Assembly: GCA_003388505.1 (NCBI GenBank)
Contig: QQVO01000006.1
Coordinates: forward strand, 1-64,000
Reading direction: 5' to 3'
Source of the DNA: Planctomycetota bacterium
Lineage (GTDB): Bacteria > Planctomycetota > Planctomycetia > Planctomycetales > Planctomycetaceae
Length of the DNA: 64,000 nt
In this document: positions 6,717 to 51,896 of the stretch, piece by piece
Numbering within the stretch: the first letter of the stretch is position 1
Layout: the number at the start of each line of letters is the position of its first letter
The notes under the pieces: model-generated
Told to the model about the DNA's origin: nothing
The model's database searches: none
What the model saw: only the letters and a program-made list of their open reading frames with translations
Made by a program: the position numbers and the translations under genes

Positions 6717-8165
6717 TCACGCTTGCATGATCTCGTGCCAACTCAACTCGTGTGGCATGATGCCTCTCGCGGCCGACACGGCTGCGGCACGGCCAGCGGC
6801 CTCACCCATCGGGACCGCGTTTCCAGTGACGCGGTAGCTGGAATGTGCGATGAAGTCTCCGCTGATGCACCGGCCGGCCATCAGGAGCCCGTCAACATCT
6901 GCGGCAATGAGAGCTGGATAGGGAATATCGTAGGGTTTCATTCCGCCGCCCTTGAATTCACGGTCGATTTCTCGATTGCCACTCGACTCGAGTGCATGCA
7001 CATCAATCGGGAACGTCGCCCGACAGACAGCCTGCTCGTGCCGGAGACCACTCGCGAGATCGTGGCCTGAGATCACGTACCGTCCGCGGATGCGACGGCC
7101 TTCTCGAACGCCAATCTGCTCGGCGGTGGCAACGATGGACATCTCCTGCCACGGTCCGCCGATCCCGCGAAGACCCGCAACAAGCTCGTGAAGCTCACGT
7201 CTGGCTCGGATAGTGGCCTCGGTAATGGCATCGGCATCAAAAGCTGATACGCCGTATTCATGATTCGTCATGAGCGAGTAGATTTGGCTGTGCAGATGGC
7301 GCAACGTTGGCGCCCGGTATGATGGGGCGACGCCGTTGTCCTCCATGAGCTGGAGCAGACGCCGTTTGGCTTCCGAACCGGTTTCGCGGATGAACGGTCG
7401 AATGGCGTCGGGAGCGACTCCGGTCAGCAGCGCGAGCATCGACATTGGCTGACATGAGCATTCCGCGCCGATGCCCACGTCAAAGCGGCATCCGGCATGG
7501 GCGGCCAGATCGCCGTCACCACTGCAGTCCACGAATCGATTCGCCAGCCAGGCTTCGCGACCGGACTTCGATTCCGTCAGCACGGCGACGACACGATTGC
7601 TGCGATCGATCACCGCCCCAACCAACCGGGTATGCAGCCGAATCCTGATCCCGGCTTCGACACACAGTTCTTCCAGCACCAGCTTGGCGACTTCAGGATC
7701 GTACACCGTTCCGTCAGTGCTTTGCGCGACGCTGCTTCCGCGCGAGGCAAACTCCTGCAACAACTCGGACATGATCCCCGACTTGTTGCCGGCATCGAGC
7801 ACCTTCGTCAGCAGGCCGACCGTCCAGACCCCGCCCAGGCAGCCAGCGACTTCAATCAACTGAACCGAAACGCCGGATCGGGCCGCCGCCAGTGCCGCAG
7901 CGATGCCAGCTGGGCCGCCGCCGCAGACAAGAACATCGGTGCTGCCGGCGACGGGAATAAATCTCTCCGATTCGACCAATGTCCGCCCATCCGCCGACAG
8001 CGAACCGGCCGTCCGTAGCACGTCACCGGTCACCGGATTCGGGATCCGTGTGGCTGCCGGATCATCGTCCGCCTTAACGTCGGGAGAAGTCAGTGACGCG
8101 GAGACAAGTAATCCGCCGGCGGTCGTTTGCAGGAACTGTCTTCGTGATTGATCGAGGCGATTCAT
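6717..8165 (-). CDS. Tat-exported FAD-dependent oxidoreductase
   Basis: A 482-residue protein whose start at 8165 gives a Tat leader: MNRLDQSRRQFLQTTAGG followed by a hydrophobic stretch. The Rossmann FAD motif VLVCGGGPAGIAAALAAARSG lies around residues 77-97, with the acidic residue ending the second strand in VQLIEVAG and a GCLGGVWT segment. The C-terminal part has LLMAGRCISGDFIAHSSYR and a GEAAGRAAA helix typical of the FAD_oxidored family (PF12831), which is expanded in Planctomycetes. The substrate is unknown; several family members act on sugars or aromatic compounds in the periplasm. It stands alone between mobile-element remnants. The longer in-frame start at 8264 would bury the Tat motif and is less likely. 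Confidence 0.88.
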   Translation of the reverse strand: MNRLDQSRRQFLQTTAGGLLVSASLTSPDVKADDDPAATRIPNPVTGDVLRTAGSLSADGRTLVESERFIPVAGSTDVLVCGGGPAGIAAALAAARSGVSVQLIEVAGCLGGVWTVGLLTKVLDAGNKSGIMSELLQEFASRGSSVAQSTDGTVYDPEVAKLVLEELCVEAGIRIRLHTRLVGAVIDRSNRVVAVLTESKSGREAWLANRFVDCSGDGDLAAHAGCRFDVGIGAECSCQPMSMLALLTGVAPDAIRPFIRETGSEAKRRLLQLMEDNGVAPSYRAPTLRHLHSQIYSLMTNHEYGVSAFDADAITEATIRARRELHELVAGLRGIGGPWQEMSIVATAEQIGVREGRRIRGRYVISGHDLASGLRHEQAVCRATFPIDVHALESSGNREIDREFKGGGMKPYDIPYPALIAADVDGLLMAGRCISGDFIAHSSYRVTGNAVPMGEAAGRAAAVSAARGIMPHELSWHEIMQA

Positions 8166-9300
8166 GGACAACGGTGCCTTCTTGTTCACCCAATGAGCGC
8201 CCCATCGTACCAGCAAAGGACCAGAGTTATCGATGCCGAACGCAGTCGCTGGAGAGCCAGGCAACAGCGCCGCGGCGAATTCCAGTGAAGGGATACGACG
8301 GAGAATGCCTTGCTGACAAAGACGATTCTCCGATGCGTCAAATCACGCACGCGCAACCTGCATCGGGCATCTTCACCGGAAGCAGTTCCGTCGCATGGGG
8401 CGGATGCTCAGGTCACATCGTCCTGCGCGGATTCCTTCCGATCCGAGCTCGCCGTTGCACATTGACGGCAGGTTGACAGTCACCGCCTGCACGAGTGAGT
8501 GCTGTTCTTAGCTGTGACACGCGCTGCTCGGAATTGGGACATGACCCGATTTCGATCGTCCCCGGCCGGAAATTGATCCGCATCCCCCCGGTGCATCGTT
8601 CGCGGGACTCCGGATGACCGGTTCGCCAGCCAAGGCGGAAACGGCGTCAAAATAGGTAGGCTGCCGCATTTGCCGTGTTTTCAGTATACTCGTGCACTGA
8701 CACGCAGTGTTTGGGAGCACGCGATATGGACCGACCAAATGGAAGCCGAACCGTCCTGGTACGGATCACCTACGACACGATAGGCGATGTGGCGGGGGAC
8801 GTGCGACCGGTGAGGGGAAGGTGGGCAGAATCCTGTGCTCACGCGCGCGCGAGGCGTGGTCTCTCCAGACTCGTCATGATCTCGGCCCGGCCGTGGGATA
8901 AGGGTCACGGGATAACCAACTCCGCGTCGACTCGGCCCTTCGGCGGCTTCCCGCCCGCGCGCGCGAGGGATTTCCGCGATTCTCTTCCAATGACGGACAG
9001 CGTTCCTGTGGTCGCGTCACCGCTGACAGCGCGGTAAAGTGGTGTTCATCGGGTGAGTCCATGTGCGGTCGCTCCGCGCGGGCTTTCAATCGAGTCAGGG
9101 GACGTCTGCGGCGGAGCGCAGAGCACCTACCTACCGCGACGCCCCGTGGCTCGGCCCGACTTGGTAGGTGCATTCAATGCCGGGCCTTCACAATCCGCCG
9201 CTGGGCGAGTTCGATACTCGCTCCAATTCTCGCGCCCGGCGATTCGTGCGCGCGACTTGGCTGCGCCTCTTTGTCGTTACCGCTGACCAATCAGCACGCC
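8166..9300. other. intergenic stretch without a supported gene
   Basis: Only short overlapping ORFs with random composition are present. It holds one partial copy of the dispersed intergenic repeat (about 8345-8390), and ACCTACC/GGTAGGT half-sites around 9127-9172 that could form a hairpin. No RNA gene is recognisable. Confidence 0.5.
8345..8390 (+). repeat. dispersed intergenic repeat, partial copy G
   Basis: It contains GCGCAACCTGCATCGGGCAT and CTTCACCGGAAGCAGTT, which line up with the reverse complement of the copy at 38756-38825 (GCAACGCGCGTCGGGCAC, then TTTCACCTGAAGCACTT). The GGTCGAC core is not recognisable in this copy. Confidence 0.45.
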
Positions 9301-36930: not shown

Positions 36931-38337
36931 CTACGAAACCAACTGCGGGATTGGTTCGCTTGCATTAAAGAACTCGACGATGTCGCCCGGAACACCGTCG
37001 GTGACGCGGAGTTCGGCGCGATCCACCAGCAGGTCCATGATGGTGGCGTACATGTTGGCTGTCGTGACGACGTTGCCCTGCGGAATCGACGCCAGACGGT
37101 CCGACTCGCCAATCACCTGGCCCATCGGCAACCCGCCGCCGGCGAACGCCAGCGTGCAAAGATCGCCCCAGTGGCCCCGACCGCCGGAGTCGCTGATCTG
37201 CGGAGTTCTCCCAAATTCCCCGGTAATTACCAGCAGCACCTTCTCACTCAGTCCGCGCTCTGCCAGATCCATTAGAAAGGCGGTGATTGCCTTGTCGGCC
37301 GCCGGACCGAGCACGGGCATGCCGTTGGCGATACTGACATTGTTCTTGTTTCCATGCATGTCCCAACCGACGCTGGCAACCGTCACAAAGCGGCAGTCTG
37401 CCTCAACCAGTCGGCGGGCCAGAAGCATCTGCTTCCCCAGTGAATTGGGCGACGCAGCCCGCTGCTTTTTCTGCAGCGCCGGCGGAAGCCTGAAGCGGCT
37501 GGTGTCGTAGCGGGCGATGAGAGCAGGGTCCTCGTGGCGCAGATCGAAGGCTTTGCTCATTCCCCCAACAATGGCGTCAAACGCCTGCTGCTGGAACTGA
37601 TCGGCGCCACCAAGCAGCTTGGTCTCGTCCACGTGTCGCTTGAAAGAGTCGAGATTCGCCAGCAGCGTCCGCCTGTCTTCCAACCGGCTCCTGGAAAGCC
37701 GCAGTTCCATGTTCTGCACGACCTCGCCGCCGGCGCTCGGATCAAACGGTTTATAGGCGTCCGAGAGGGGGCCGGGATCGGAAATGAATCCGACAAATCG
37801 CTGGCCAATGCCCTGGTATTTGTCACCGACCGCCGGCGGAGTGACGATCGAGGCGTGTGGAATTCCGGTGCGGCTGCTGTTGGCGCCGGCGATGCGCGAG
37901 AAAACCGAGGCCATGTTACTGCCGGCCGGGTTCCCACCCGCCATCACATGCCTTGCCGCATCCTCGTGGTTGCTGATGCCGTGTTGGAAGCAGCGAACGA
38001 CCGCGAGACGGTCGGCGACTGACGCGAGTCCCGGGAAATGGCTGCCGAAGGTGACGCCCGGCAGCGTCGTCTGGACTTCGCCGAACATGGCCCGGTATTC
38101 GGCGGGGGCGGACATCTTCGGGTCGAAGGTCTCGATGTGGCTCGCGCCGCCTTGCAGATTGAGCAGGACAACCGCCTTCTCTTTCAGGAGCGTGCCACCG
38201 GCTGCGGCCCCGGCCTTTGCGGAAAGCAGACTCGACAACGTCAGGCCGCCGATTCCCAGCGTGCCAACCTGCAAGAACTCGCGCCGGCTGGAACCCTCGC
38301 AGGTGTCGTGTCGCCCATCCGTATAAAGTGTCAGCAT
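36931..38337 (-). CDS. DUF1501 domain protein with Tat-type leader
   Basis: A 468-residue protein. The leader SSRREFLQVGTLGIGGLTLS matches the Tat consensus (positions about 16-35). The DUF1501 core has VVLLNLQGGASHIETFDPK, ARHVMAGGNP, VASVGWDMHGNKNN, VITGEFGRTPQIS and GRGHWGD. The fold is related to alkaline phosphatases/sulfatases. Function is unknown; in Planctomycetes these genes are numerous and usually pair with a DUF1549/DUF1553 cytochrome-type gene, which is absent here. Confidence 0.9.
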   Translation of the reverse strand: MLTLYTDGRHDTCEGSSRREFLQVGTLGIGGLTLSSLLSAKAGAAAGGTLLKEKAVVLLNLQGGASHIETFDPKMSAPAEYRAMFGEVQTTLPGVTFGSHFPGLASVADRLAVVRCFQHGISNHEDAARHVMAGGNPAGSNMASVFSRIAGANSSRTGIPHASIVTPPAVGDKYQGIGQRFVGFISDPGPLSDAYKPFDPSAGGEVVQNMELRLSRSRLEDRRTLLANLDSFKRHVDETKLLGGADQFQQQAFDAIVGGMSKAFDLRHEDPALIARYDTSRFRLPPALQKKQRAASPNSLGKQMLLARRLVEADCRFVTVASVGWDMHGNKNNVSIANGMPVLGPAADKAITAFLMDLAERGLSEKVLLVITGEFGRTPQISDSGGRGHWGDLCTLAFAGGGLPMGQVIGESDRLASIPQGNVVTTANMYATIMDLLVDRAELRVTDGVPGDIVEFFNASEPIPQLVS

Positions 38338-39136: not shown

Positions 39137-39772
39137 ATGGTTGAACAGATCCCAAGTCCTGACGCCCTGGACCGCCACTCCGCTGAGGCGCGCAGCACCG
39201 CTTGGCAGTCGTTTCATCACCGATTGGAATGCGACGACTCCGTCGCGATGCGGCGGTTGTTCGAGGACTACTCGCAGCGGCTGGTCCGCGTCGCCTCGCA
39301 GAATATCCACCCCGCTCTGCTGAAGCGCTTCGACGGCGAGGACGTCGTCCAATCGGTTTTCCGCACGTTCTTTCGCCGGCACGGAGAGGGCCGGCTGCAC
39401 GTCGAGCATTCACAGCAGCTCTGGCGATTGCTGGTGACGATCACGCTCTGCAAGACGCGCAGTCACGCGCGTCGACATACGGCGGATCGTCGGGATGCGA
39501 AGGCGGAGGAAGTCATCGCCAGCGACGCGCTGCTCCTCGAACGAGAGGCCTCGCCGGAAGATGCGCTGGCTCTCTGGGAAGAGATCGACGTTGTTCTGGA
39601 AGGCCTGCCGGAGAAAACCGGAGAAATCCTCTCGAGGCGCTTGGAGGGAATGAACAAGTCCGAAATTGCCTCGGATCTCAACATCTCGCGGCAGACGGTG
39701 CATCGCTTGCTGAACCTGCTGGAAGAGCGGCTGGCCGAGCGGTTGGACCGGCTGGCTGCACAGCCGGAGTGA
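39137..39772 (+). CDS. ECF-type RNA polymerase sigma factor
   Basis: A 211-residue sigma-70 family regulator. Region 2: RRLFEDYSQRLVRVASQNI and FDGEDVVQSVFRTFF. The linker is charged. Region 4: EILSRRLEGMNKSEIASDLN with an ISRQTVHRLLNLLEERLAE helix-turn-helix. Planctomycete ECF factors of this type (GEDVVQSVF signature) are typically encoded beside Ser/Thr kinases with WD40 or other C-terminal domains, as here: the kinase starts 117 bases downstream on the same strand. No anti-sigma gene is adjacent, so the kinase may provide control. ATG at 39137 was preferred; a GTG at 39116 is in frame. Confidence 0.88.
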   Translation: MVEQIPSPDALDRHSAEARSTAWQSFHHRLECDDSVAMRRLFEDYSQRLVRVASQNIHPALLKRFDGEDVVQSVFRTFFRRHGEGRLHVEHSQQLWRLLVTITLCKTRSHARRHTADRRDAKAEEVIASDALLLEREASPEDALALWEEIDVVLEGLPEKTGEILSRRLEGMNKSEIASDLNISRQTVHRLLNLLEERLAERLDRLAAQPE

Positions 39773-39889
39773 TTCTCGGCGATATTTGAAATTCGATGTG
39801 ACAGATCAGATGATGGATTGCGATCACTAATCGGGAGGCAGGCCGAATGAATCGGACTGTCCCAACACCCGATCCTGATCGGAGTCCTG

Positions 39890-42800
39890 ATGCGAGCCAA
39901 ACAGTCAATCTCGGGCCAGGCGGTCGAGCAGCGGAATCGGCTCGAAGCGCTGCTGATGCACTTTGAGCAGGATTGGCGTCCCGGGCTGCTGGACGAATTC
40001 GTTGCGCGCGTCGAATCGGACGCAGCAGGCGTCGATCGCCGTCTCGCGCTCGCCGAACTCGTCAAGATCGACCTGCAGCGCGGCTGGATCTCCGGGCACG
40101 GCAAGCTGATCGAGCAGTATCTCACTGAGTTCCCCGCGCTCGGGACGGCAGCCGACGTCGATCCGGAACTGCTTGCAGTCGAATACTGCGCCCGTCGCGA
40201 AACGGACCCCGAACTGAAGCTCTCCAGCTACAGAGAGCGATTCCCGGGCCGGGCGGATGACCTGTCGCGTCTCGTCGGGGAGGCGGATCAGTCGGGCGCG
40301 GGGCAGCCTGCCACAATCGACACCAGCCGGATTTCCGAAGCCCGGGACACCAGTCCTCGGGGCAAGACGGTCTCTCCCGAGATTCCGCGGGAATTCGGCC
40401 GCTACCGGATCATTCGCGAACTCGGCTCCGGCGCCATGGGCACGGTCTACCTGGCGCACGACACGCAACTGGACCGGCAGGTCGCGCTCAAGACGCCGAA
40501 ATTCAAAGGGGGCGAAGACGCCGAGTTGATTGCGCGGTTCTACCGCGAAGCGCGAGCGGCCGCGACTTTGCATCACCGGAACATCTGTCCGATTCACGAC
40601 GTGGGGCAGATTGACGGTCAGCACTACATGTCGATCGGCTTCATCAAGGGCCGGTCGCTGCAGGAGTTCATCAAGTCCGATCGACTCCCGCCTCCGAAGA
40701 CGGTCGCCATGCTGATCCACCGGCTGGCGCTGGCTCTCGCGGAGGCGCACCGGCACAACGTGATCCACCGCGATCTCAAGCCGGCCAATATCATGATCGA
40801 TCACAAGCGGGAACCGATTGTGATGGACTTCGGCTTGGCCCGGAAGACCGACACCGAAACCCGGATGACTCAGAGCGGGATGCTCGTCGGCACGCCGGCC
40901 TACATGTCGCCCGAACAGGTCACCACCGAGAGCGACGAAGTCGGCCCGGCCGCCGACATCTATGCGCTGGGAGTGATTCTCTACGAACTGCTCACGGGCG
41001 ACATCCCGTTCCGCGGCTCGATCGCACAGGTGGTGTACCAGATTACTTCGGAGGAGCCGAAACCGCCCTCGGAAATCCGCGACGGGATCGATCCGGCACT
41101 GGAATCGATCTGCGCGAAGATGATGGCCAAGCGCGTGGAGGATCGCTACCGGTCGATGGAAGAGGTCGCCGCCGATCTCAAAGCGTATCTGAAAGGCAAA
41201 CCGAATCAGATTGCGAGGAAAGCGGAGCAATCAAGCACAGGTGACTCGGGCGAGGTTTCGGAAACCAACGCGCTGAATGCGTACTTCGCTGCGCAAGCGG
41301 CGGCGGATCCAATGCAGACGGCTTTGGAACCGGCGCTCGCCTCCAAGCCCGCCCCCCGGCGTCGCCCGAGGAAGCAAGACAAGCCCAGCAAACCGCAGAA
41401 GCCGCGCGGATTGTGGATCGGAGCCGGCCTCGCGGGGCTGTTGATTCTGCTCGGCATCGTGTTTCTCTGGCCTACGCCCGAAGGCACGGTCCGCGTCGAG
41501 GTGCTCGGCGACGGTCTGGAGGACCTGGACGTTCTGATCGACGGCGACGCGATCGATATCAAGAATGGAAAATGGGAGGGGGAAGAGACGGCCGAGGAGC
41601 ACCGACTCGCGCTCCGTCTGGGCGGTGATCAACTGCGATTCGACGAAGAGACGAAGCGGTTTGAAATCGACGGACGCGAATTGTCCGTCAAGCTGGCGGG
41701 AGCGGAGATCAGCAGCGACCGGTTTGACGTCGTGAAAGATGGCGAGACGCTGCTGACGATCGCATTCGTACGGTCGGAATTGGATTCAACGCCGGACTGG
41801 AATGCCGATGAGCCGGAAGTCGTCGATCAGGGCCCAATTGTTCAGGTCGCGCGTAAGGTGCTGGCCCATCCGTCTTCCGATCCAGACGATCCATCCTCCA
41901 TCTCGCTGCGCGAGGAACTCCAACTGCTCCGCGTGAAGTATGTGGGACAGCCGGAGGCCAATCAGGTTGCGCAGTTGATGACCGCGGTGCCGTGGCCGCT
42001 GGATTCTCGGCAGCAAAGTGATTTGACGGAAGCTCAACTGATGAACGCCGGAGCGGGCGACACTGCAGCCGTTCCCGAAGCACTCGTTGCGATGTGTGGA
42101 GGAACGACCTCCACTCATTGGTGGCCGCCGAGCATGCTGGCCGTGAGTTCCGAGGGACGTCTTGCCGCGACGGCTGATGCCGGCATTGTCTGTCTCTGGG
42201 ATCTCGAGACAGGCGCGCTGCAACATCGGCTCTTCACAAGCCGGCTCAACATTACCCAAATTGCGCTGAGTCCCGACGGTCGCTTCCTGGCAGCCGTCGG
42301 ATCCGGAGTCGCCATCTGGGACGCTGCCAGCGGCCGGTCGCTTCATCTCCTGACCGAGCGATTCCCGGGCACCATCAGTTGCTGCGCGTTCACCGCATCG
42401 AGTGATCAACTGATCGTCGGAGGCCGACGTTATCTGGGCGTTGTCGACGCGGTTTCCGGAGACGCCGCGAAGCTGGACAGCAGTGACGAATCGTATGATC
42501 TCGTGACGGTCGCTTCGCATGGAGAAGTATTTGCGGCCGTCAACGCGGAGCAGGGCAAGATCACAATCTGGGATATTGATGAACAACGGGAGATCCATAC
42601 CCTGCGGCCGGCACCGGAATCTTCCATTGTCGACGTCGCGTTCGATCGGGACGGCCATCAGTTGGCGATGTCCGACGACCGCCGGATCGAGTTGTGGAAC
42701 ATTAGCGAGCCGGAACCGACCGTTGCCACTCTGTTTGAGCTGAGCGACGGCGAGAGTGTCTACGATGATGGACCGCTTGTCTTTGGAGACGCGGGCGTGC

Positions 42801-45800
42801 TCTACGCGGTGCGCCGCGGTCGCGTGTCCGGCTATTCTCTCGCAACGGGTGAGTGGACCGAACTGACGAACGATTCCGACGCCGCCCCTTTGGCGCTCGG
42901 GTTCTGTCACGGAACAAGCCAGCTTGTGATCCTGGCGCGTTCCTTCGGGCAGGCACGCGGCCACCACCTGCAAGTGCGCGCCGCCGGCCACACCGATCAA
43001 GATTCAGCGGGCGCTGCGATTGAGCTCCTCCCCACCGGCTTGCTTCCGCAAACGCTCTCGAATCCTTTCCCTGCTGTGGATATCAGCGGCGATGCGACGA
43101 TGCTTGCCGTCCTGGACGGAGGAAGCCGTCTGACGCTGCACTCCGTCAGCGGCGCGTGGGCGCCTCGCGTGATCGCCGAACCACTCGGGACACAGGGGCT
43201 TGTCGCCTTTCGGCCGTCGGCGCCGGAAGTCGCGGCGCTCGACAACTTGTCCGGGATTCAGGTGTGGGAGATTCGCCGCGACGGCCGGCCGCGAATCAAA
43301 TGGAAGAAGCCGATCAAACCGATTCGAGGCCAGTCGTTTCCTCAGAACCTGGCGTACACGGCTGGTGGTCGACTCCTGGCGGCGAGTGATACGAACGGGG
43401 TGCATGTCTTCGACGCATCGTCGGGGGCGCCTCCCTCCGGAACAACAGAATTTCAGGACGAGCTTCAGCAGTTCGCCGTCAGCCCGGATGGATCGCTTCT
43501 GGTCGTGTCGACTCAGGGGCCGGAATTGGTGGCGTGGGACAGGTCGACCGGCCGAGAGACGTGGAGCGGGACACTCGATCCGGGTCGGACGATTAGAAAC
43601 CCCTTGCGCAATCTGGAATTCCGCGCGGACGGGACGGAGGTCATGGCTCTCAATCGGTTTCTTTACTTCATCGATCCAACGGACGGGACAGTTCTCGAGA
43701 AGATTGATCCGCGATTTCTGGTCTCCCGAGGCGTGCTTCCGAACTATCGCATGGCGACGAGTTCTGACGGTCGTTGGATTGCTTTCGTGTCCTACGTATG
43801 GGGCGAAGGCGTGCTCCATCTCGTTGATTGGGCCAGCCGCACGCACCGGAAGACAATTCGGTTCGGACCGGTGATGCTCGGGCGCCACGACGTCGCGTTC
43901 GCCCCCGATTCCCGCCACGTGATTGTGGCGAACCTGAACGGGAGTGCATACGTGTTCCGGATCGAGACCTTGGACGAGGCGAGGACGCGGGTCGAGCGGA
44001 GTTTCCAGGCGGGTGAATTCGGCGTGGGCTCCGGCAAGGCAACTCCAATTGTTGAATTCGAGCCTTCCGGGAACGACCGCGAGCCGCCGCGACAGGCTCC
44101 TTCGCAGAATCAGTCCGATGCTGCGTCGCCAACCTCCGCGCCCCAGACAGATGCATCGGCCCGGCAGGGCCGGACGGACGGCGCGCCGACCCCGGTGAAC
44201 GCTCCGTTCGTCCGAAACCTCCGCAGTGCTGTCTTCACCCCTGAGGGCCGAATCCTCGGGTGGACGACGGACCGGCGGCTCATCGTCGTCGCGCACGAGA
44301 CCGGGCAAACGCTGCGGGAACTCGAAACGCGCGGACCCACGGCCGACTTGTCTGCTGGTCGGCTGGCTGTCTCTCCCGACGGCCGCTACGCGTGTTCCTC
44401 TTGGGAGCAAGATGCCGCAAATCAGGCGTCCTACCTGTGGGACTTGAGGAGCGGCGAGTTCCTTAACGAACTGGAGCTCGGGCGCGGCGCCGCCTTCTCG
44501 CCCGACGGGGAGATGATCGTTACCTACTCGTGGAACATCGGTGGGGGGGGATCGCTGCGGCTGTATGAGACGGCAACGGGGCGATTGGTCGCACGGCCCG
44601 AAAACCTCACCGGCAGCATTCACGGGGTCGCCTTCACTCCTGACGGTCGGAAGCTGATCATCGGGGTGTTGGAGGATTCGGTGCGGATGTTGAATCTGGA
44701 CACTTTGGAAACGACCGAGCGTGTCGTCGATCTGGAGAAGACTTCTTGTCTGACGGTCACTCCCGACGGTCAAAGCGCTGTCGTGGGAGGTTTCAACTAC
44801 AACGTCTATCGATGGGACTTTGAAACGTCGAAACCACCGCTGCGTCTCTTTCGGTCCGACACGTCCGTGTCGCGGCTGGCTCTCCACCCGGATGGGCGAT
44901 CGGTCGTGGTCGGTGGGTACGCTGGCGTGCTCCGCCTCATCGAACTGAACACGGGAGATGTCCTCTGGACGGTCCAGGCGCACGAGCACGAGATCGCGAG
45001 TGTGGACATTTCGCCGGACGGACGATTCTGCCTGTCTGCCGGAAGCCACGGGAATAAAGAGAGCCGTCTCCATCCATACGTGGTGCGGCTGTGGCGGCTC
45101 CCGGAAGACGTTCCGTCCGAGACCTCCGATGACGACGTTTCGCAGTTCGCTCCGGCGCCCCCGACCGACGACGCAGCGGCCCCGCAGGACGGTCGGATCG
45201 GCGACGACGCACCGCCCGGTGAAGTGTTCGTCCTCGACCCGCCGGACGAGAAGATCAATCGATGCTCCATTTCTCCCGACGGTCGATGGATTGTTTCGAT
45301 CGAGCGCGACGGCGGGCGCACGGCTCGTCTGTGGTCCAGCCGAGACGGCCGTCAGGTGGCCAGTTGGTCGGGACACCACTCCTACGTCGGTTGGCTGCCG
45401 GACAGCCGTCGCATGGTCTGCATCGACCGGCCGTACGTTCGTGTCCGCACGGTCGATGATCCCTCCCGGATTCTGGCTCAGTGGAACACGCTTGACGCAG
45501 GCATCAAGCACGTCGACGTGTCCCCGGACGGCCGGCGTGCTCTGGTTTCGAGTTGGAGTAGGGCTTACTCATTGTGGGACTTGGAGACCGGAGAGCGACT
45601 GAGGACCATTGAGGACCTCCCGGTACGCGTCGATACCGTCGCCTTCGGCGGAGACGGTGAACGCATACAGTGCTACGGACCCGATGTCAACGCGCCTGGC
45701 GGCGCCACGATCGAAGTGCGCAACGCATCCAGCGGTGAGATCCTCAAGTCCATCCGCGAGGAGTATGGAAGCGAGTTCGCCCGGTTCTCGTCCGACGGGA

Positions 45801-46912
45801 ACCGGATCCTGATCCCCCATTGGAATAGCTCTCGCGTGACTCTGATCGACACGATCACCGGTGCGGAGTTGGCCGAATGGACAACGCCCTCTCAAGTGTC
45901 CTCCGTGGCTCTTTCAACGAAGGGTGTGTACGCCCTCACGGGCGGGAACGACGGCGTCGTCCGGCTGTACGACACCGACCCGCCCCGTATACTGCACGTG
46001 TTCCGTGGTCACACGGATCAGGTCAATTGGCTGGAATTCTCGGCCGATCTACGGTTCGCCGTCTCCGCCGGCGAGGACGGCACACTCCGTGTCTGGCGAC
46101 TGCCGACGGGCCTTTTGCAACGTGCGCCCCAACCCGGCGACGCCGGGAACGGACTGCTGTCCGAGAACCGAATCGAACCGGCATCGACTGCCGACGAGTG
46201 GATCGATCTGTTCAACGGCCGCGATCTGACCGGCTGGGAATTGGCGGACAGCAATAAGAGCGCCTGGAGCGTGCAGGACGGAGCCATCGTCGTCGAGGGG
46301 CGCGGTCGCGGCTATCTCCACCGTGACTGGCGTTTTTCGGACTTCGAAATGACGCTGGAGTATCGCGACGATGGGCGGTCAGATCGCGGCTTCGTCCTGC
46401 GGGCGCCGGATGCCCAGTTGGGTGAGGCCAAGGCGATGGAACTGACGATCATCGATAACGACTCGGTGGAGCACACGCGCTTGATGCAGGACGGCGGACT
46501 CCACGAGAATCCGGTCTTGCTGGATGACGCCGCCCGCGCGGCGGGCGAGTGGAACACGCTTCGCGTCCGGGTCGACGGTTCCGTTTGGCAAGTCTGGCTC
46601 AATCGTGAATTGATGGTCGAGATCGACCGGCGACCACAGCAGCAAGCGAACCAACGCCACACCGCGTTCACCCGCACCGCCGGCCGGGTGGTGTTGCAGC
46701 ATTGGGATTCCAAGCGGGTCGAGTTCCGTAACATCCGCGTGCGGGAACTGGAGCCGGGCGCTTCCGATCCCCGGACGGACGACGCCAACAAGCCGGGTGG
46801 AACCGGCGGCGGGCGAACGAAGAGGGGCGGTGGAGGCTTCGGAGGCGGCGGGTTCGGCGGGGGCGGGGGCGGGAAAGCGAAGCCCAATCGGGCCAACAGA
46901 AATCGAAAGTAG
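39890..46912 (+). CDS. giant membrane Ser/Thr kinase-WD40-DUF1080 fusion
   Basis: A 2340-residue protein. Residues 1-165: N-terminal region common in planctomycete kinases. About 168-430: complete Hanks-type kinase, with P-loop ELGSGAMGTVYLAHD, VALK lysine, HRDLKPAN catalytic loop (near 292), DFGLARK, GTPAYMSPEQV, so it should be active. About 504-527: one TM helix (LWIGAGLAGLLILLGIVFLW). About 737-2075: many WD40-like blades with SPDGR/TPDGR turns, enough for more than one propeller. About 2103-2287: DUF1080/3-keto-disaccharide hydrolase-like domain (WIDLFNGRDLTGWE, WSVQDGAIVVEG, EWNTLRVRVDG, VEFRNIRVREL). About 2297-2325: Gly-rich low-complexity tail. Topology inference: kinase inside, propellers and DUF1080 outside. 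The FHA gene starts four bases later. Confidence 0.92.
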   Translation: MRAKQSISGQAVEQRNRLEALLMHFEQDWRPGLLDEFVARVESDAAGVDRRLALAELVKIDLQRGWISGHGKLIEQYLTEFPALGTAADVDPELLAVEYCARRETDPELKLSSYRERFPGRADDLSRLVGEADQSGAGQPATIDTSRISEARDTSPRGKTVSPEIPREFGRYRIIRELGSGAMGTVYLAHDTQLDRQVALKTPKFKGGEDAELIARFYREARAAATLHHRNICPIHDVGQIDGQHYMSIGFIKGRSLQEFIKSDRLPPPKTVAMLIHRLALALAEAHRHNVIHRDLKPANIMIDHKREPIVMDFGLARKTDTETRMTQSGMLVGTPAYMSPEQVTTESDEVGPAADIYALGVILYELLTGDIPFRGSIAQVVYQITSEEPKPPSEIRDGIDPALESICAKMMAKRVEDRYRSMEEVAADLKAYLKGKPNQIARKAEQSSTGDSGEVSETNALNAYFAAQAAADPMQTALEPALASKPAPRRRPRKQDKPSKPQKPRGLWIGAGLAGLLILLGIVFLWPTPEGTVRVEVLGDGLEDLDVLIDGDAIDIKNGKWEGEETAEEHRLALRLGGDQLRFDEETKRFEIDGRELSVKLAGAEISSDRFDVVKDGETLLTIAFVRSELDSTPDWNADEPEVVDQGPIVQVARKVLAHPSSDPDDPSSISLREELQLLRVKYVGQPEANQVAQLMTAVPWPLDSRQQSDLTEAQLMNAGAGDTAAVPEALVAMCGGTTSTHWWPPSMLAVSSEGRLAATADAGIVCLWDLETGALQHRLFTSRLNITQIALSPDGRFLAAVGSGVAIWDAASGRSLHLLTERFPGTISCCAFTASSDQLIVGGRRYLGVVDAVSGDAAKLDSSDESYDLVTVASHGEVFAAVNAEQGKITIWDIDEQREIHTLRPAPESSIVDVAFDRDGHQLAMSDDRRIELWNISEPEPTVATLFELSDGESVYDDGPLVFGDAGVLYAVRRGRVSGYSLATGEWTELTNDSDAAPLALGFCHGTSQLVILARSFGQARGHHLQVRAAGHTDQDSAGAAIELLPTGLLPQTLSNPFPAVDISGDATMLAVLDGGSRLTLHSVSGAWAPRVIAEPLGTQGLVAFRPSAPEVAALDNLSGIQVWEIRRDGRPRIKWKKPIKPIRGQSFPQNLAYTAGGRLLAASDTNGVHVFDASSGAPPSGTTEFQDELQQFAVSPDGSLLVVSTQGPELVAWDRSTGRETWSGTLDPGRTIRNPLRNLEFRADGTEVMALNRFLYFIDPTDGTVLEKIDPRFLVSRGVLPNYRMATSSDGRWIAFVSYVWGEGVLHLVDWASRTHRKTIRFGPVMLGRHDVAFAPDSRHVIVANLNGSAYVFRIETLDEARTRVERSFQAGEFGVGSGKATPIVEFEPSGNDREPPRQAPSQNQSDAASPTSAPQTDASARQGRTDGAPTPVNAPFVRNLRSAVFTPEGRILGWTTDRRLIVVAHETGQTLRELETRGPTADLSAGRLAVSPDGRYACSSWEQDAANQASYLWDLRSGEFLNELELGRGAAFSPDGEMIVTYSWNIGGGGSLRLYETATGRLVARPENLTGSIHGVAFTPDGRKLIIGVLEDSVRMLNLDTLETTERVVDLEKTSCLTVTPDGQSAVVGGFNYNVYRWDFETSKPPLRLFRSDTSVSRLALHPDGRSVVVGGYAGVLRLIELNTGDVLWTVQAHEHEIASVDISPDGRFCLSAGSHGNKESRLHPYVVRLWRLPEDVPSETSDDDVSQFAPAPPTDDAAAPQDGRIGDDAPPGEVFVLDPPDEKINRCSISPDGRWIVSIERDGGRTARLWSSRDGRQVASWSGHHSYVGWLPDSRRMVCIDRPYVRVRTVDDPSRILAQWNTLDAGIKHVDVSPDGRRALVSSWSRAYSLWDLETGERLRTIEDLPVRVDTVAFGGDGERIQCYGPDVNAPGGATIEVRNASSGEILKSIREEYGSEFARFSSDGNRILIPHWNSSRVTLIDTITGAELAEWTTPSQVSSVALSTKGVYALTGGNDGVVRLYDTDPPRILHVFRGHTDQVNWLEFSADLRFAVSAGEDGTLRVWRLPTGLLQRAPQPGDAGNGLLSENRIEPASTADEWIDLFNGRDLTGWELADSNKSAWSVQDGAIVVEGRGRGYLHRDWRFSDFEMTLEYRDDGRSDRGFVLRAPDAQLGEAKAMELTIIDNDSVEHTRLMQDGGLHENPVLLDDAARAAGEWNTLRVRVDGSVWQVWLNRELMVEIDRRPQQQANQRHTAFTRTAGRVVLQHWDSKRVEFRNIRVRELEPGASDPRTDDANKPGGTGGGRTKRGGGGFGGGGFGGGGGGKAKPNRANRNRK

Positions 46913-46916
46913 CGAG

Positions 46917-47768
46917 ATGAGCACTGACAACTACCAGGACGAGCCGATCGTGCAGACGGTCGCCGAACCGTTGCATCAGATTCTCAAGCAGCAGGCCGGC
47001 ATCACGGAGGCGACCGCTCCGGCGACCACGCCCGCAACAGGGGCCCGGCCGACCGCCCCGAAGACGCTCGCATTCCGTCCCACCGGCCGCCAACCGCTCG
47101 CGATGCTCACCATCCTCGACGACGGCCAGCGCAAGGCGGGGGAAGTCGTGCGGATTCGCGGCCCGCGCCTCGTCATCGGCCGCGAAGAGGGGGACGTCAC
47201 GATCCCGTTTGATCCGGACATCTCCAGCGAGCACGCGGAACTCCGCTGCCAGAAACGCGACGGCAAATTCCAGTGGTATCTCATCGACCTCGGCAGCACC
47301 AACGGGACGTTCCTGCGGGCCTATCGGGCCACGCTGCCGAAGAAGGCCGATCTCGTCCTCGGCAGCCGCCGCTATCAGTTCCAGTTGCCGGAGAGCGTCA
47401 GCAGTGAACAGGATGACGAGATTGCCGAAACCCACCGCTACCGGGCTCCCTCGCGAACGCTGGCGGAGAACTTCCTGCCCCGCCTCGCCGAAGTCGGCGC
47501 GCCCGACGGCCGAGCGTTCCGCTTCGGCAAACCGAGTCTCCTGTTCGGTCGCGATGCGGCCTGCGACATCAGTGTGGCGGACGACCCGTTTCTCAGTCCC
47601 CGTCATGTCCAGTTCTACCAGGATGAGCGCGGGCGGTGGATGATCGAAGACAAGAAGTCGCTCAACGGCGTCTGGCTCAAGATCAAGCGCCTGCCGTTGA
47701 GCCAGCAAGCCGAGTTCCAACTCGGTCAGCAGCGATTCCGATTTCAACCGAATGTCGTCGCCGATTAA
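46917..47768 (+). CDS. double FHA-domain protein
   Basis: A 283-residue soluble protein with two forkhead-associated domains. FHA1, residues about 75-160: LVIGREEGDVTIPFD, DISSEHAELRC, DLGSTNGTFLRA. FHA2, about 195-280: LLFGRDAACDISVADD, LSPRHVQFY, and EDKKSLNGVWLK, where the usual TNG becomes LNG. FHA domains bind phosphothreonine; the GR, S--H and NG contact residues are present in FHA1. There are no TM segments or enzymatic domain. It probably docks on phosphorylated sites of the kinase encoded four bases upstream. Confidence 0.9.
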   Translation: MSTDNYQDEPIVQTVAEPLHQILKQQAGITEATAPATTPATGARPTAPKTLAFRPTGRQPLAMLTILDDGQRKAGEVVRIRGPRLVIGREEGDVTIPFDPDISSEHAELRCQKRDGKFQWYLIDLGSTNGTFLRAYRATLPKKADLVLGSRRYQFQLPESVSSEQDDEIAETHRYRAPSRTLAENFLPRLAEVGAPDGRAFRFGKPSLLFGRDAACDISVADDPFLSPRHVQFYQDERGRWMIEDKKSLNGVWLKIKRLPLSQQAEFQLGQQRFRFQPNVVAD

Positions 47769-47783
47769 GCGATCTTTCAAAGC

Positions 47784-49376
47784 ATGCCACAACAAACCTG
47801 GATCATCGGCTCCGGTCCGGATTGCGATCTCGTGGTCGACAACTCCGCTGTCTCGAGCCGCCACTGCCGGCTCGAAGCCGACGGCGACACGTTGACGCTG
47901 CACGACCTCGATTCCACCAACGGGACGTTCGTCAACGGCGAGCAACTGACTGCATCCCGGGTCGTGACGACGGACGACCAGATCACGCTCGGCCAGTCGC
48001 AGCCGATGCCCTGGCCGCAGGAGATTAAACCGACCCCACAGCCCGCACCGCGGTCAGCGCCGAAAGGGCCGCAACAGCAGGCGATCACCGTCGGTCGAGC
48101 GGCCGGTAACGACGTCGTCCTCAACGAAGCGCACGTCTCCTCCCAGCACGCCCGCCTGACCATAACCGGCGACGACATCCTGTTGGAGGATCTCGGATCG
48201 ACGAACGGCACGGCCGTTGGGAACGTGGAAAACAAGATCAGCCGCGCGACGGTGAAGCCGGGCGATACGGTCTACTTCGGCTCGGCCCCCTACACGGTCT
48301 CGGACCTGCTATCGCGGGCGCAGGCCAGTCCGCGCACGGTCCAGGCCGGCGAAACCGCAAGCGGCCGCATAGTGCCGATCGCCGTTGTGCTCGGCGTCGT
48401 ATTGCTCGGGCTCGTTGTCTGGATTGCGTTTCCCGATCGCGCAGCGAATGACGGGGCGGACGACCCTTCGCCTGCCCTCGCCGAGAACGAACCCGATGAA
48501 CCACCTGCGGTAGCGGAAGTCAACGAATCCAACACGACCGATGCCCCACCGGAGGACGCTTTGACCGACGAAGAACGGCTGGCACATGCGCTGTTCGTCG
48601 TCGTCTGCAGCAATTCGGCGCGACACCCACAGTTCCGCGTAGGAACCGCTTTCGCAGTCGACGAACATCACCTCGCCACGACGGCCTCCGTCATCAGAGC
48701 GATGGAGGATCTCCAGCAGAACGGTTACGAACAGGCGTTTCTGTATTCGCCGCCGACGCAACAGGAACTGCCGCTGCTCTCCACGCACGTACATCCCGAG
48801 TACACACGCGCTAATCAGGAAGCGCGCGCCGCGCAACAGCGCCACGACGACTTGATCGACAATCTGGAGTCGGACCCTCCGGACGAAGCAGCTCTGGAGG
48901 CTCTCAAACAGCAGTTGCTCGCGTCCCGCGTCGAAGCTCTCGACGCCATTGATCGCCAGACCGTGTATGATGTCGCCGTCATCGAAGTCGAATCCCCGCT
49001 CGCCCACTGGTTGTCCGGCGCCCCGCCGGAGACGACGCTTCGCCCCAATTTGCGGCTGACAGTCACGGGACTCGCCTTCGACCTGGAAGACCCCTTCTTC
49101 AACCCCAATGAACCGCTGGAACCGCACAGCATGACCAGTCGCGTCCGGCAACTCGTTCCGGGCGAGTCCGCACAACGGCTGTTGGCCGGCGCGACTAAAG
49201 ATCACCTCGAATACGCCTACCTCGGCAGCCCGGCCCTGAACGCGCAAGGTGAAGTAGTCGCCGTCTACGCGCGTCCCACACCGCCCGCTCCCGATGCGGA
49301 CGAGGCCGAACCACCTGACACCTTCGATGCTCCCTTGTTCGAGCGCATCCGCGAATGCCTCACGCATGCCCCTTGA
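47784..49376 (+). CDS. double FHA-TM-trypsin-like protein with lost catalytic His
   Basis: A 530-residue protein. FHA A, residues about 1-72: WIIGSGPDCDLVVDN, VSSRHCRLE, DLDSTNGTFVNG. FHA B, about 98-165: ITVGRAAGNDVVLNE, VSSQHARLT, DLGSTNGTAVG. One TM helix follows (about 197-217, IVPIAVVLGVVLLGLVVWIA). About 275-520: a trypsin-fold domain with VGTAFAVDEHHLATTASVI, where the motif normally ending in NAHV has Ser instead of the catalytic His, YDVAVIEV holding the Asp, and YLGSPALNAQGEVVAVYA where the Ser would be. This is a likely pseudoprotease, perhaps a peptide sensor outside the membrane. It lies 15 bases after the previous gene. Confidence 0.85.
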   Translation: MPQQTWIIGSGPDCDLVVDNSAVSSRHCRLEADGDTLTLHDLDSTNGTFVNGEQLTASRVVTTDDQITLGQSQPMPWPQEIKPTPQPAPRSAPKGPQQQAITVGRAAGNDVVLNEAHVSSQHARLTITGDDILLEDLGSTNGTAVGNVENKISRATVKPGDTVYFGSAPYTVSDLLSRAQASPRTVQAGETASGRIVPIAVVLGVVLLGLVVWIAFPDRAANDGADDPSPALAENEPDEPPAVAEVNESNTTDAPPEDALTDEERLAHALFVVVCSNSARHPQFRVGTAFAVDEHHLATTASVIRAMEDLQQNGYEQAFLYSPPTQQELPLLSTHVHPEYTRANQEARAAQQRHDDLIDNLESDPPDEAALEALKQQLLASRVEALDAIDRQTVYDVAVIEVESPLAHWLSGAPPETTLRPNLRLTVTGLAFDLEDPFFNPNEPLEPHSMTSRVRQLVPGESAQRLLAGATKDHLEYAYLGSPALNAQGEVVAVYARPTPPAPDADEAEPPDTFDAPLFERIRECLTHAP

Positions 49377-49392
49377 TTGATCGGAGAACCCG

Positions 49393-50553
49393 ATGCGTTC
49401 CTCATCTCAACGCCTTTCGTTGCTGCTGATCGTCCAGTGGGGGTCTCTTGCTGCCTCGGATCTTTCAGCGCAGGTCGTGGTGACTGGTCGCGGATACCGC
49501 TACCCGTATCGCGTGCACTGGGGCGTCTACGACCCCTACTACGCCGTCACCTCGCGCGTTTACGCCCAGGCGGAACTGATCCGCGCCCAGGGCGATGCGG
49601 CCGTCGACTTCGCATACGCTCGGAATCTCAACGCCGAGGCTTACAGCCGCGAACTCGATAACTGGGTCAAGGAAGTACGGGCGCGCTGGGAACGCGAGGC
49701 CACAGGGGAACTCGGGCAAATGGAACTGAACCGCATTCGTCAGATCCGGCGGTTGGAGTTTCTCAACGATCGCAAATGGCAGAACAGCCGGACGTGGAAC
49801 CGGCTCAAGAACCACCCTGAATTAAGCGACGCGAGTATCGAGACGGGCGACGCGCTGAACTTCCTGCTCGATCGACTGGGGGCGTCCGCGCTGCCGTATG
49901 AGTTCGATCCCGCGACGAGCCGGTTCTCGACCGACGTGATTGCCCAACTCCAGCTCGATGACGAGACGTTGTCCCACGTGACGCTGGAACAGGGTTCGTA
50001 TGCATTCCCCGCGAATCAGGAGATGCAGGGAGAGGAAGTGTTGTGGCCCTATCTTCTTCGCTGGGACGAGTTCGAGCCGGAACGGCGCAAGTATGAAGCC
50101 GCAAGGAAGGCGGTCGTGGACGAGTCGGAAGCGAGCGGACAGGCGTCGGTCGAGTCGATTCAGCAACTCCAGGAGTCACTCGACGAACTGACGAACCGGT
50201 TTCATCGATCACGACGCGTCCAGGATTGGCTCCGTGAGCACCTCCGGTTCTCGCAGTACCGTGCGAACGACCGCTTCCTGTGGAATTTGAATCGTGAAAT
50301 CGCTCAATTGGAGAAGACCGGCGACATCCGGCCGTTCCAGGGACGCGGCGGATATAATCCGACGACGGACGGTGATCACGTCCTCAGTCTGCTGTGCTTC
50401 ATGAATCGCAACGGTATCAAGTTTGCCCCTCCGCAACCCGGCAGCGAGTTCGCCTATCACCGGCTGTTCACCCAGATGCGAGCCATCTACCTCACGGTGG
50501 CGGACTACGACGAATCCATTCAGCCCGAGGATCTCACAGAGCTGGTTGAGTAA
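49393..50553 (+). CDS. secreted hypothetical protein of the kinase/FHA cluster
   Basis: A 386-residue protein with a signal peptide (RLSLLLIVQWGSLAASDLSAQ, cleavage likely after the SAQ or nearby). The mature part begins with a Tyr/Arg-rich stretch (GRGYRYPYRVHWGVYDPYY), then long helical, charged segments (for example ELDNWVKEVRARWEREATGE and QQLQESLDELTNRFHRSRRV), with a C-terminal SLLCFMNRNGIKFAPP. No known domain was recognised. It starts 16 bases after the FHA-protease gene and is presumably its co-expressed extracytoplasmic partner. Function is unknown. Confidence 0.75.
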   Translation: MRSSSQRLSLLLIVQWGSLAASDLSAQVVVTGRGYRYPYRVHWGVYDPYYAVTSRVYAQAELIRAQGDAAVDFAYARNLNAEAYSRELDNWVKEVRARWEREATGELGQMELNRIRQIRRLEFLNDRKWQNSRTWNRLKNHPELSDASIETGDALNFLLDRLGASALPYEFDPATSRFSTDVIAQLQLDDETLSHVTLEQGSYAFPANQEMQGEEVLWPYLLRWDEFEPERRKYEAARKAVVDESEASGQASVESIQQLQESLDELTNRFHRSRRVQDWLREHLRFSQYRANDRFLWNLNREIAQLEKTGDIRPFQGRGGYNPTTDGDHVLSLLCFMNRNGIKFAPPQPGSEFAYHRLFTQMRAIYLTVADYDESIQPEDLTELVE

Positions 50554-51062: not shown

Positions 51063-51111
51063 GTTAGGACTGTCGATCCGGGGGTTGCGGGTTCAAGTCC
51101 CGTCGGCCTCG
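51063..51111 (+). tRNA. tRNA 3'-half fragment (pseudo-tRNA or attachment-site scar)
   Basis: The segment carries a GGACTGTCGATCC anticodon-loop-like element, a well-formed T-arm (GCGGG, loop TTCAAGT, CCCGT) and the 3' acceptor strand CGGCCTC plus discriminator G. The matching 5' acceptor (GAGGCCG) and a D-arm are not found in the preceding 80 bases. Integrative elements often insert within tRNA 3' ends and leave such copies, and an integrase remnant lies 334 bases further on. The original identity (Asn-like or Asp-like) is not certain. Confidence 0.4.
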
Positions 51112-51117
51112 CTGTAC

Positions 51118-51808: not shown

Positions 51809-51823
51809 CACGAGTCTTTCGAG

Positions 51824-51896
51824 TGGAGGATAGGGGACTCGAACCCCTGACCTTTTGGCTGCCAGCCAAACGCTCTCCCAACTGAGCTAATCCCCC
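51824..51896 (-). tRNA. tRNA-Ala (anticodon GGC)
   Basis: A 73-nt cloverleaf. The acceptor stem GGGGGAT pairs with ATCCTCC and contains the G3-U70 wobble pair that identifies alanine tRNAs, with discriminator A73. The D-arm AGCTC...GAGC, the anticodon stem TTTGG/CCAAA around loop CTGGCAG, and the T-arm AGGGG/CCCCT with loop TTCGAGT are all intact. The CCA end is not encoded. A terminator follows. Confidence 0.96.

Follow-up and report, generated by a model that had tools for sequence, protein, structure and literature searches.

Five genes on the forward strand of the first 64,000 nucleotides of contig QQVO01000006.1 from a Planctomycetota bacterium (the stretch analysed here, called the window) encode an extracytoplasmic function (ECF) sigma factor, a transmembrane Hanks kinase, a soluble double-FHA protein (FHA1), a membrane double-FHA protein (FHA2) and a predicted secreted protein (SEC). 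We propose, with a probability of about 0.5, that they form a transmembrane phospho-signalling module around a pseudoprotease receptor, in which phosphothreonine tags would gather the FHA proteins. The gene content, the co-occurrence of the genes, the lost catalytic residues, the residues of the FHA domains and the enrichment of a threonine motif are observed in the sequences. A preliminary description of the window, which saw in these genes a sensor whose response the sigma factor executes, is partly supported.

The five open reading frames (ORFs) are real and lie where that description placed them, with successive gaps of 117, 4, 15 and 16 bases; the spacing of 4–16 bases that it gave is that of the last four genes, the sigma–kinase gap being the 117. 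The arrangement goes beyond chance, because it recurs in other genomes.

Recurrence of the module

A search with SEC (P0005) gave 17 places in 16 of 150 genomes of the window's family; these matches supplied 17 loci. The sample holds no other genome of the window's genus; a related cluster (L076) is carried by the metagenome-assembled genome 'Pirellulaceae bacterium KatS3mg111'. A trypsin-profile (FHA2-like) protein adjoins SEC at 14 of the 17 SEC loci, L068 included; none was found beside SEC at L067 (where SEC is truncated), L070 and L071. The profile of the FHA2 ectodomain matched in 17 of 392 genomes of a phylum sample. Nine genomes gave strong matches, three from the window's own family and six from another family in its class (the second family); weak partial matches in eight other genomes were left out of the comparison. 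At the second-family loci, which were found through FHA2, SEC lies next to FHA2 in 6/6.

The resulting set has 20 FHA2 loci (the window, L056–L066, L069, L076 and L097–L102), 14 of them found through SEC, L076 included, and six through FHA2; L068 and L075 were left out. SEC is adjacent to FHA2 at all 20, partly by selection, since 14 loci were found through SEC. A Ser/Thr kinase is present in the fetched stretch at 17/20. Judging from these gene neighbourhoods, the recurrent core of the module is the FHA2–SEC pair.

Around this pair the gene content varies. In type A (the window, L056–L059 and L076) a transmembrane kinase is followed by FHA1, FHA2 and SEC, with an additional FHA-kinase at L057, L058 and L059. 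FHA1 was not found at the seven loci of type B (L060–L066), all of which have a degenerate FHA2, nor at the six of type C (L097–L102, the second family), where a soluble FHA-kinase precedes FHA2 and lies close to it and to SEC on one strand; at L098 and L100 alone these are accompanied by a sigma factor plus either a DUF1080 kinase or pieces of a kinase. At L069, FHA1 and an FHA-FHA-ABC transporter lie beside FHA2 and SEC. Type C forms one clade in the trees, which do not separate A from B. The co-conservation of kinase and FHA2 genes implied by the preliminary description therefore stands (17/20 loci), and the five-gene order of the window is one form among several that this variable module takes.

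The FHA2 ectodomain

In the window protein the family Trypsin_2 reached 19.4 bits, under the cut-off of 27.6. Nine of 14 homologous ectodomains matched it at E up to 0.1, and that of L061 passes the cut-off. The structure model of the ectodomain has a mean pLDDT of 55 and cannot be relied on in its second half; the better part, mostly at 74–84 by blocks, includes the helical insert, with helices at residues 80–105 and 110–136. Compared with the PDB, the model gave 50 listed matches, nearly all chymotrypsin-type proteases, with a best E of 0.0041 and TM-scores of about 0.25; no match had an E under 0.001. The homologues and the partial model matches, weakly scored, suggest a possible chymotrypsin fold.

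The catalytic His is present at 0/20 FHA2 loci and the catalytic Ser at 1/20 (L065), the Asp being retained at 18/20; L075, at a contig end and outside the 20 loci, has the Ser and no His. Because His is missing in 20/20 and Ser in 19/20, the ectodomain is most probably a pseudoprotease. An active protease outside the cell was rejected, as the catalytic triad is incomplete. Of the trypsin-like, protease-like ectodomain described earlier, the fold is tentatively supported by the homologues and the partial model, and 'protease' falls with the loss of His and Ser.

The threonine motif and the predicted FHA readers

The tail of FHA1 contains a copy of the pattern T[VTMIL]xE that is a candidate phosphothreonine epitope (Table 1). 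Tails of FHA1 homologues were cut by regular expression, that of G017b coming out too long at 233 residues. The pattern is present in 13 of 18 tails, in 17 copies and one to three per tail. Shuffled tails carried it in 1.36 tails on average and seven at most, 0 of 10,000 shuffles reaching 13, and six control patterns with one position altered occurred in 1–4 tails. Fixed before the linkers of the second-family FHA-kinases were read, the pattern was then found there in 27 copies in six type C linkers (3–5 each, typically R-x-T-[IM]-x-E), against a mean of 1.08 and a maximum of seven in shuffled linkers (0/10,000 reach 27).

In an exact-match DNA search of six genomes for RQT[VIM]xE, matches less than 500 bases apart fell in module genes only (four in G265, three in G502, two in G043), and no such cluster was found in the window genome (G000), G085 or G041. 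Totals against a reversed control were 12/23 in G000, 10/8 in G085, 28/11 in G041, 23/6 in G043, 12/8 in G502 and 15/2 in G265; on these totals, single matches mean little. Ahead of the transmembrane segment, the window kinase has QTALEP and the L056 kinase HTVIES.

FHA domains bind phosphothreonine through the residue set GR, SxxH and xNG. The set is invariant in domain 1 of FHA1 in 9/9 proteins and complete in domain B of the window FHA2, domain A being without the Arg. Pfam finds two FHA stretches in each protein, in agreement with the soluble and the membrane double-FHA protein described earlier. In type B, FHA2 retains an FHA remnant that lacks SxxH and xNG in 7/7 proteins, three of which retain GR. 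The motif follows these residues: a motif-bearing FHA1 or FHA-kinase partner accompanies 13/13 FHA2 keeping SxxH and xNG versus 0/7 of the others, a split of 1 in 77,520 were the loci independent, which as related loci, uncorrected for phylogeny, they are not.

FHA1 homologues also directly adjoin FHA-ABC transporter genes at L069 (5774–9114), L074 (3828–6308), L109, L110 and L119, which suggests that several membrane FHA proteins may use FHA1 as a common adaptor.

Table 1. Coordinates of the cluster and its elements in the window.
Feature	Position	Strand	Evidence or remark
ECF sigma factor	39137–39772	+	Pfam Sigma70_ECF, 50.2 bits; 10-sigma alignment; translation
Candidate promoter/operator TGTGACA-N14-TTGCGA in sigma–kinase gap	39797–39823	+	same gap of L056 has it
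Transmembrane Hanks kinase with WD40/propeller and DUF1080 ectodomain, 2340 aa	39890–46912	+	Pfam, hydropathy
Kinase domain with GSGAMG, HRDLKPAN, DFG	40403–41158	+	Pfam, motif reading
Juxtamembrane QTALEP, similar to the motif in the tail of FHA1	41315–41332	+	motif reading
Kinase transmembrane segment	41411–41467	+	hydropathy
3keto-disac_hyd (DUF1080) domain, predicted extracytoplasmic	46196–46744	+	Pfam
FHA1, soluble double-FHA protein	46917–47768	+	FHA matches 47172–47345, 47541–47720
QTVAEP, T[VTMIL]xE copy in FHA1 tail, candidate phosphothreonine epitope	46953–46970	+	homologous-tail motif count
FHA2: two N-terminal FHA domains, one transmembrane segment, pseudo-trypsin ectodomain	47784–49376	+	Pfam, hydropathy, alignment
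FHA domain A of FHA2	47799–47993	+	SxxH and STNG kept; G-S replaces GR (Arg lost)
FHA domain B of FHA2	48084–48281	+	canonical GR, SSQH, STNG
FHA2 transmembrane segment	48369–48425	+	hydropathy
Trypsin-like ectodomain	48642–49265	+	catalytic His position = S302, Ser position = L480
Helical insert in trypsin-like ectodomain	about 48795–48965	+	partial structure model
SEC, predicted secreted protein without Pfam family	49393–50553	+	signal-like hydrophobic stretch 49393–49470

Topology and the secreted partner

Transmembrane segments were called from hydropathy alone, which gave one in the kinase (aa 508–526), one in FHA2 (aa 196–214) and a hydrophobic N-terminus in SEC. The kinase and FHA domains lie N-terminal of their segments and are therefore predicted on the same membrane side, as the preliminary description had it. 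The signal-like N-terminal stretch likewise agrees with its secreted partner. Pfam had no family for the window SEC, and over 17 SEC members it gave scattered weak matches to 11 families, the commonest in two members and the best with an E of 8.8e-5. Sequence matches in the PDB were four in all, to designed helical proteins and ZapA, and a search of plasmids with SEC gave no match.

The kinase

The window kinase matches Pkinase with 158.2 bits at aa 172–423, and GSGAMG, VALK, HRDLKPAN and DFG are all there. The residue set of active Hanks kinases (Gly-rich loop, catalytic Lys, HRDLKPxN, DFG) is thus complete, and the kinase is apparently active, as had been proposed. The huge WD40 and DUF1080 ectodomain of the earlier account is borne out by numerous WD40/propeller models and by 3keto-disac_hyd (110 bits, aa 2103–2285). 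The ectodomains of kinases at other loci differ, with WD40, DUF1080, FGE-sulfatase or nothing recognised. Since homologous kinases vary in this way, with FGE-sulfatase, reordered DUF1080 or nothing recognised, neither DUF1080 nor WD40 was retained as the defining sensor. At L057 (6812–11185), a short kinase ORF is separated from a WD40 ORF by a transposase ORF (7740–8912) and an ORF without Pfam match; the transmembrane kinase thus seems interrupted there, FHA1, FHA2 and SEC remaining open.

Planctomycete membrane kinases are described, in the part of that source available to us, with a cytoplasmic kinase domain, a single transmembrane segment and mostly periplasmic WD40 or DUF1080 domains (PMC11032199). 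Planctomycete kinases with WD40, TPR, DUF1080 or sulfatase-modifying domains are accordingly like the window kinase in domains and topology; the portions available of the same literature cover kinases or WD40 genes and mention no FHA1–FHA2–SEC partnership.

The sigma factor and the sigma–kinase gap

The sigma factor expected in the cluster was recognised by Sigma70_ECF (Table 1), and its acidic core-binding motif DGEDVVQ (DxxDxxQ) lies at 39332–39352. Among ten aligned sigma factors, that of L056 is 56% identical to the window's and the other eight 19–24%; D69 and Q72 are the same in all ten, and D66 in nearly all. The locus sigma factors thus appear divergent and largely keep DxxDxxQ. They were recognised at 12/20 loci (the window, L056, L058, L059, L062–L066, L076, L098 and L100), not in every one of them adjacent to the transmembrane kinase.

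As far as the accessible parts of two papers go, EcfP–PknT and EcfK–PknS are ECF–kinase pairs that work by phosphorylation, and in ECF43 factors, which phosphorylation activates, uncharged residues replace DxxD (PMC8999054, PMC13147305). The window resembles these pairs in that a sigma gene precedes a Hanks kinase gene (Table 1). It differs in that EcfP-type factors have a Thr-bearing uncharged motif (QTTA/STTA-like) in place of the acidic one, whereas the window sigma has DGEDVVQ; the portions describing the two pairs mention no FHA or pseudoprotease partner. EcfP-type activation was ruled out as a candidate and phospho-activation of this type is unlikely for the window sigma, because its DxxDxxQ is intact. 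EcfK also requires linker sites (PMC8999054, PMC13147305), so that phospho-activation may proceed through another site. Planctomycete examples of ECF59, ECF61, ECF62 and ECF217 are tabled as phosphorylation-regulated, and some other factors regulated in this way show DAED or a similar acidic motif (PMC8999054, sections available). These groups are set beside the window sigma by description only, as phosphorylation-regulated factors in which an acidic motif is possible; FHA2, SEC and the threonine motif go unmentioned in the descriptions to hand.

The gap element TGTGACA/TTGCGA with a 13–15 base spacer has two matches in G000 (the 39797 site and, with a spacer of 13, a site on contig C66) and one in G085, in the homologous gap; the reversed-pattern control gave 0 and 1, respectively. 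At up to two mismatches, the window has five matches versus 1.73 expected. The evidence for this candidate element is thin and comes from two genomes. Upstream of 39137, comparison with L056 gave no convincing conserved promoter block, and sigma-70 promoter and terminator scans were at or below chance.

Neighbouring genes

A DUF1501 gene lies upstream of the cluster on the opposite strand (36931–38337, Pfam). Planctomycete WD40 genes often have sigma-70 factors and DUF1501 as neighbours, according to a source seen in part (PMC5587647). Downstream, the sequence at 51072–51112, with the T-arm GCGGGTTCAAGTCCCGT, resembles the 3' portion of a tRNA; ARAGORN called only a tRNA-Ala, at 51823–51896, and an Rfam scan of the window at gathering scores found nothing besides one tRNA. 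A PADLOC scan of the sigma factor, FHA1, FHA2 and SEC matched 0 defence families, and a known anti-phage defence system was dropped on this result for four of the five proteins.

Hsp70-like genes or fragments occur near SEC–FHA2 at the type B loci L060 (16931–18481), L061 (6300–6902), L062 (12463–14088) and L063 (11823–13544), and L064 has a gene of like size and location, outside the Pfam scan. Second-family loci are flanked by MMPL-type transporter and ApbE/DUF2271 genes (L099, 11158–13431 and 4394–5980; L102, 13326–14846).

Proposed function and alternatives

We infer phosphorylation, binding, an FHA2–SEC complex, a direction of signalling and a role for the sigma factor as follows. Outside, the FHA2 ectodomain, with its inactive trypsin fold and helical insert, would form a complex with SEC, and the kinase ectodomain would serve as an interchangeable sensor. 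Inside, the kinase may phosphorylate the Thr of T[VTMIL]xE, in QTVAEP of the FHA1 tail and perhaps in its own juxtamembrane QTALEP. Once phosphorylated, these epitopes would be ligands for domain B in FHA2 and for the FHA domains in FHA1, and binding would gather the kinase, FHA1 and the FHA2–SEC receptor into one assembly. The sigma factor would be the transcriptional arm, perhaps acting at the candidate promoter that precedes the last four genes; its mechanism would not be the supply of a missing charge in region 2.2. More tentatively, and at somewhat less than even odds, a dead trypsin-fold receptor with a dedicated secreted partner, wired to kinases by a T[VTMIL]xE code (1–3 in the adaptor tail, 3–5 in the kinase linker) that partner FHA domains read, would be a distinct class of transmembrane signalling in bacteria, in which the loss of the code is coupled to the loss of FHA binding residues.

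Several observations weigh against the proposed module. The SEC profile is found in 17/170 family genomes and 14/58 genera, a patchy distribution (its two matches in genome G144 were left out of the comparison), and the SEC structure model failed (pLDDT 36). No kinase was found in the fetched stretches of L060, L061 and L069, those of L061 and L069 being 9.8 and 13.5 kb, and no sigma factor was recognised at 8/20 loci, L057 having been searched with the window sigma only. The motif was first spotted in the same FHA1 tails that were used for the shuffle test; it is missing from 5/18 of them and from five other FHA-kinases (0/5). A looser pattern is present in 3/10 transmembrane-kinase juxtamembranes and missing in 7/10, and L066, one of the three, is type B. 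The GR arginine is also kept by just 9/13 of the FHA2 with SxxH and xNG, and four FHA2 with a single domain A lack it. Many of the rows compared are related, the second-family loci being one clade; type B needs two changes in the FHA2 tree or three in the SEC tree, with weak support, and one origin is possible. FHA1 is not specific to the module, since its homologues also pair with FHA-ABC transporters.

These transporter neighbours, and L069, which has an FHA-ABC transporter and FHA2–SEC together, would suit signalling from the inside outwards, in which the kinase and the FHA proteins control a machine of the cell envelope, with phosphorylation clustering FHA2 and so assembling or gating the pseudoprotease–SEC complex outside, the sigma factor being a mere co-regulated neighbour. 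Four second-family loci, where within 20 kb only FHA-kinase, FHA2 and SEC were recognised, with no sigma factor or transmembrane sensor kinase, are also in its favour, as are two systems known from partly seen sources: Rv1747 condenses when PknF phosphorylates it (PMC9312465), and the type VI secretion system (T6SS) is positioned by the PpkA–Fha axis (PMC12607579). The recognition of a sigma factor at 12 loci, a very large predicted kinase ectodomain that looks like an input, and the lack of transport machinery in the window cluster by Pfam argue otherwise, and we consider this alternative doubtful.

The linear relay of the preliminary description, from an extracellular ligand through the kinase and the FHA proteins to the sigma factor as end effector, seems quite improbable. 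It accords with the gene order, the sigma gene 117 bases ahead of the kinase, and with the same-side topology, and there is precedent in the phosphorylation-based ECF–kinase pairs and in the tabled planctomycete members of several ECF groups cited above. However, the sigma factors differ widely between loci and, in contrast to EcfP, mostly retain DxxDxxQ, eight loci have none recognised, and no link between the sigma factor and an FHA protein was found. Least credible is a coincidence of a common planctomycete ECF–kinase unit beside an unrelated FHA2–SEC operon: kinases are common, with 61 Pkinase matches (and 32 FHA matches) in the 6.78 Mb, 78-contig window genome, and three of 20 loci lack one, but the kinase association at 17 loci spans differing kinase architectures and gene orders, the presence of T[VTMIL]xE tracks the FHA2 residues, and the last four window genes are 4–16 bases apart.

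Comparison with known systems

To our knowledge, planctomycete membrane kinases are many and their substrates and readers mostly unknown. The module proposed here offers one defined candidate set of kinase, predicted phosphosite, predicted reader domain and outside partner and, if true, would be a bacterial case of a pseudoprotease serving as a receptor domain. In the FHA protein GarA/OdhI, an N-terminal Thr motif, ETTS, can be phosphorylated; FHA1 resembles it in having an N-terminal Thr motif on an FHA protein and differs in that ETTS is unlike T[VTMIL]xE and FHA1 has two FHA domains. Conflict systems with trypsin, FHA and Hsp70 components have been described, the present module not being among those in the parts available (PMC8195603, PMC7159879), and the gene set did not turn up in a literature search of open-licence papers.

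By analogy, the cluster resembles kinase–FHA systems in which phosphorylation brings membrane proteins together. In the portion of the source available, Rv1747–PknF combines a kinase with a membrane protein that carries two FHA domains in the cytoplasm and clusters in a phospho-dependent way (PMC9312465). That protein is an ABC transporter in its membrane part, whereas FHA2 has a pseudo-trypsin ectodomain. Among the seven window proteins scanned, Pfam found neither an ABC ATPase nor an ABC2 membrane domain; it found both at the related loci L069 and L073, and the ATPase only in the cut-off L074. PpkA–Fha of T6SS is similar in having a membrane kinase whose substrate at the inner membrane is an FHA protein, as far as the accessible text describes it (PMC12607579), and different in that no T6SS component is among the neighbour proteins scanned with Pfam. 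What would set the present module apart from both is that its membrane protein is a predicted pseudoprotease receptor with a secreted partner.

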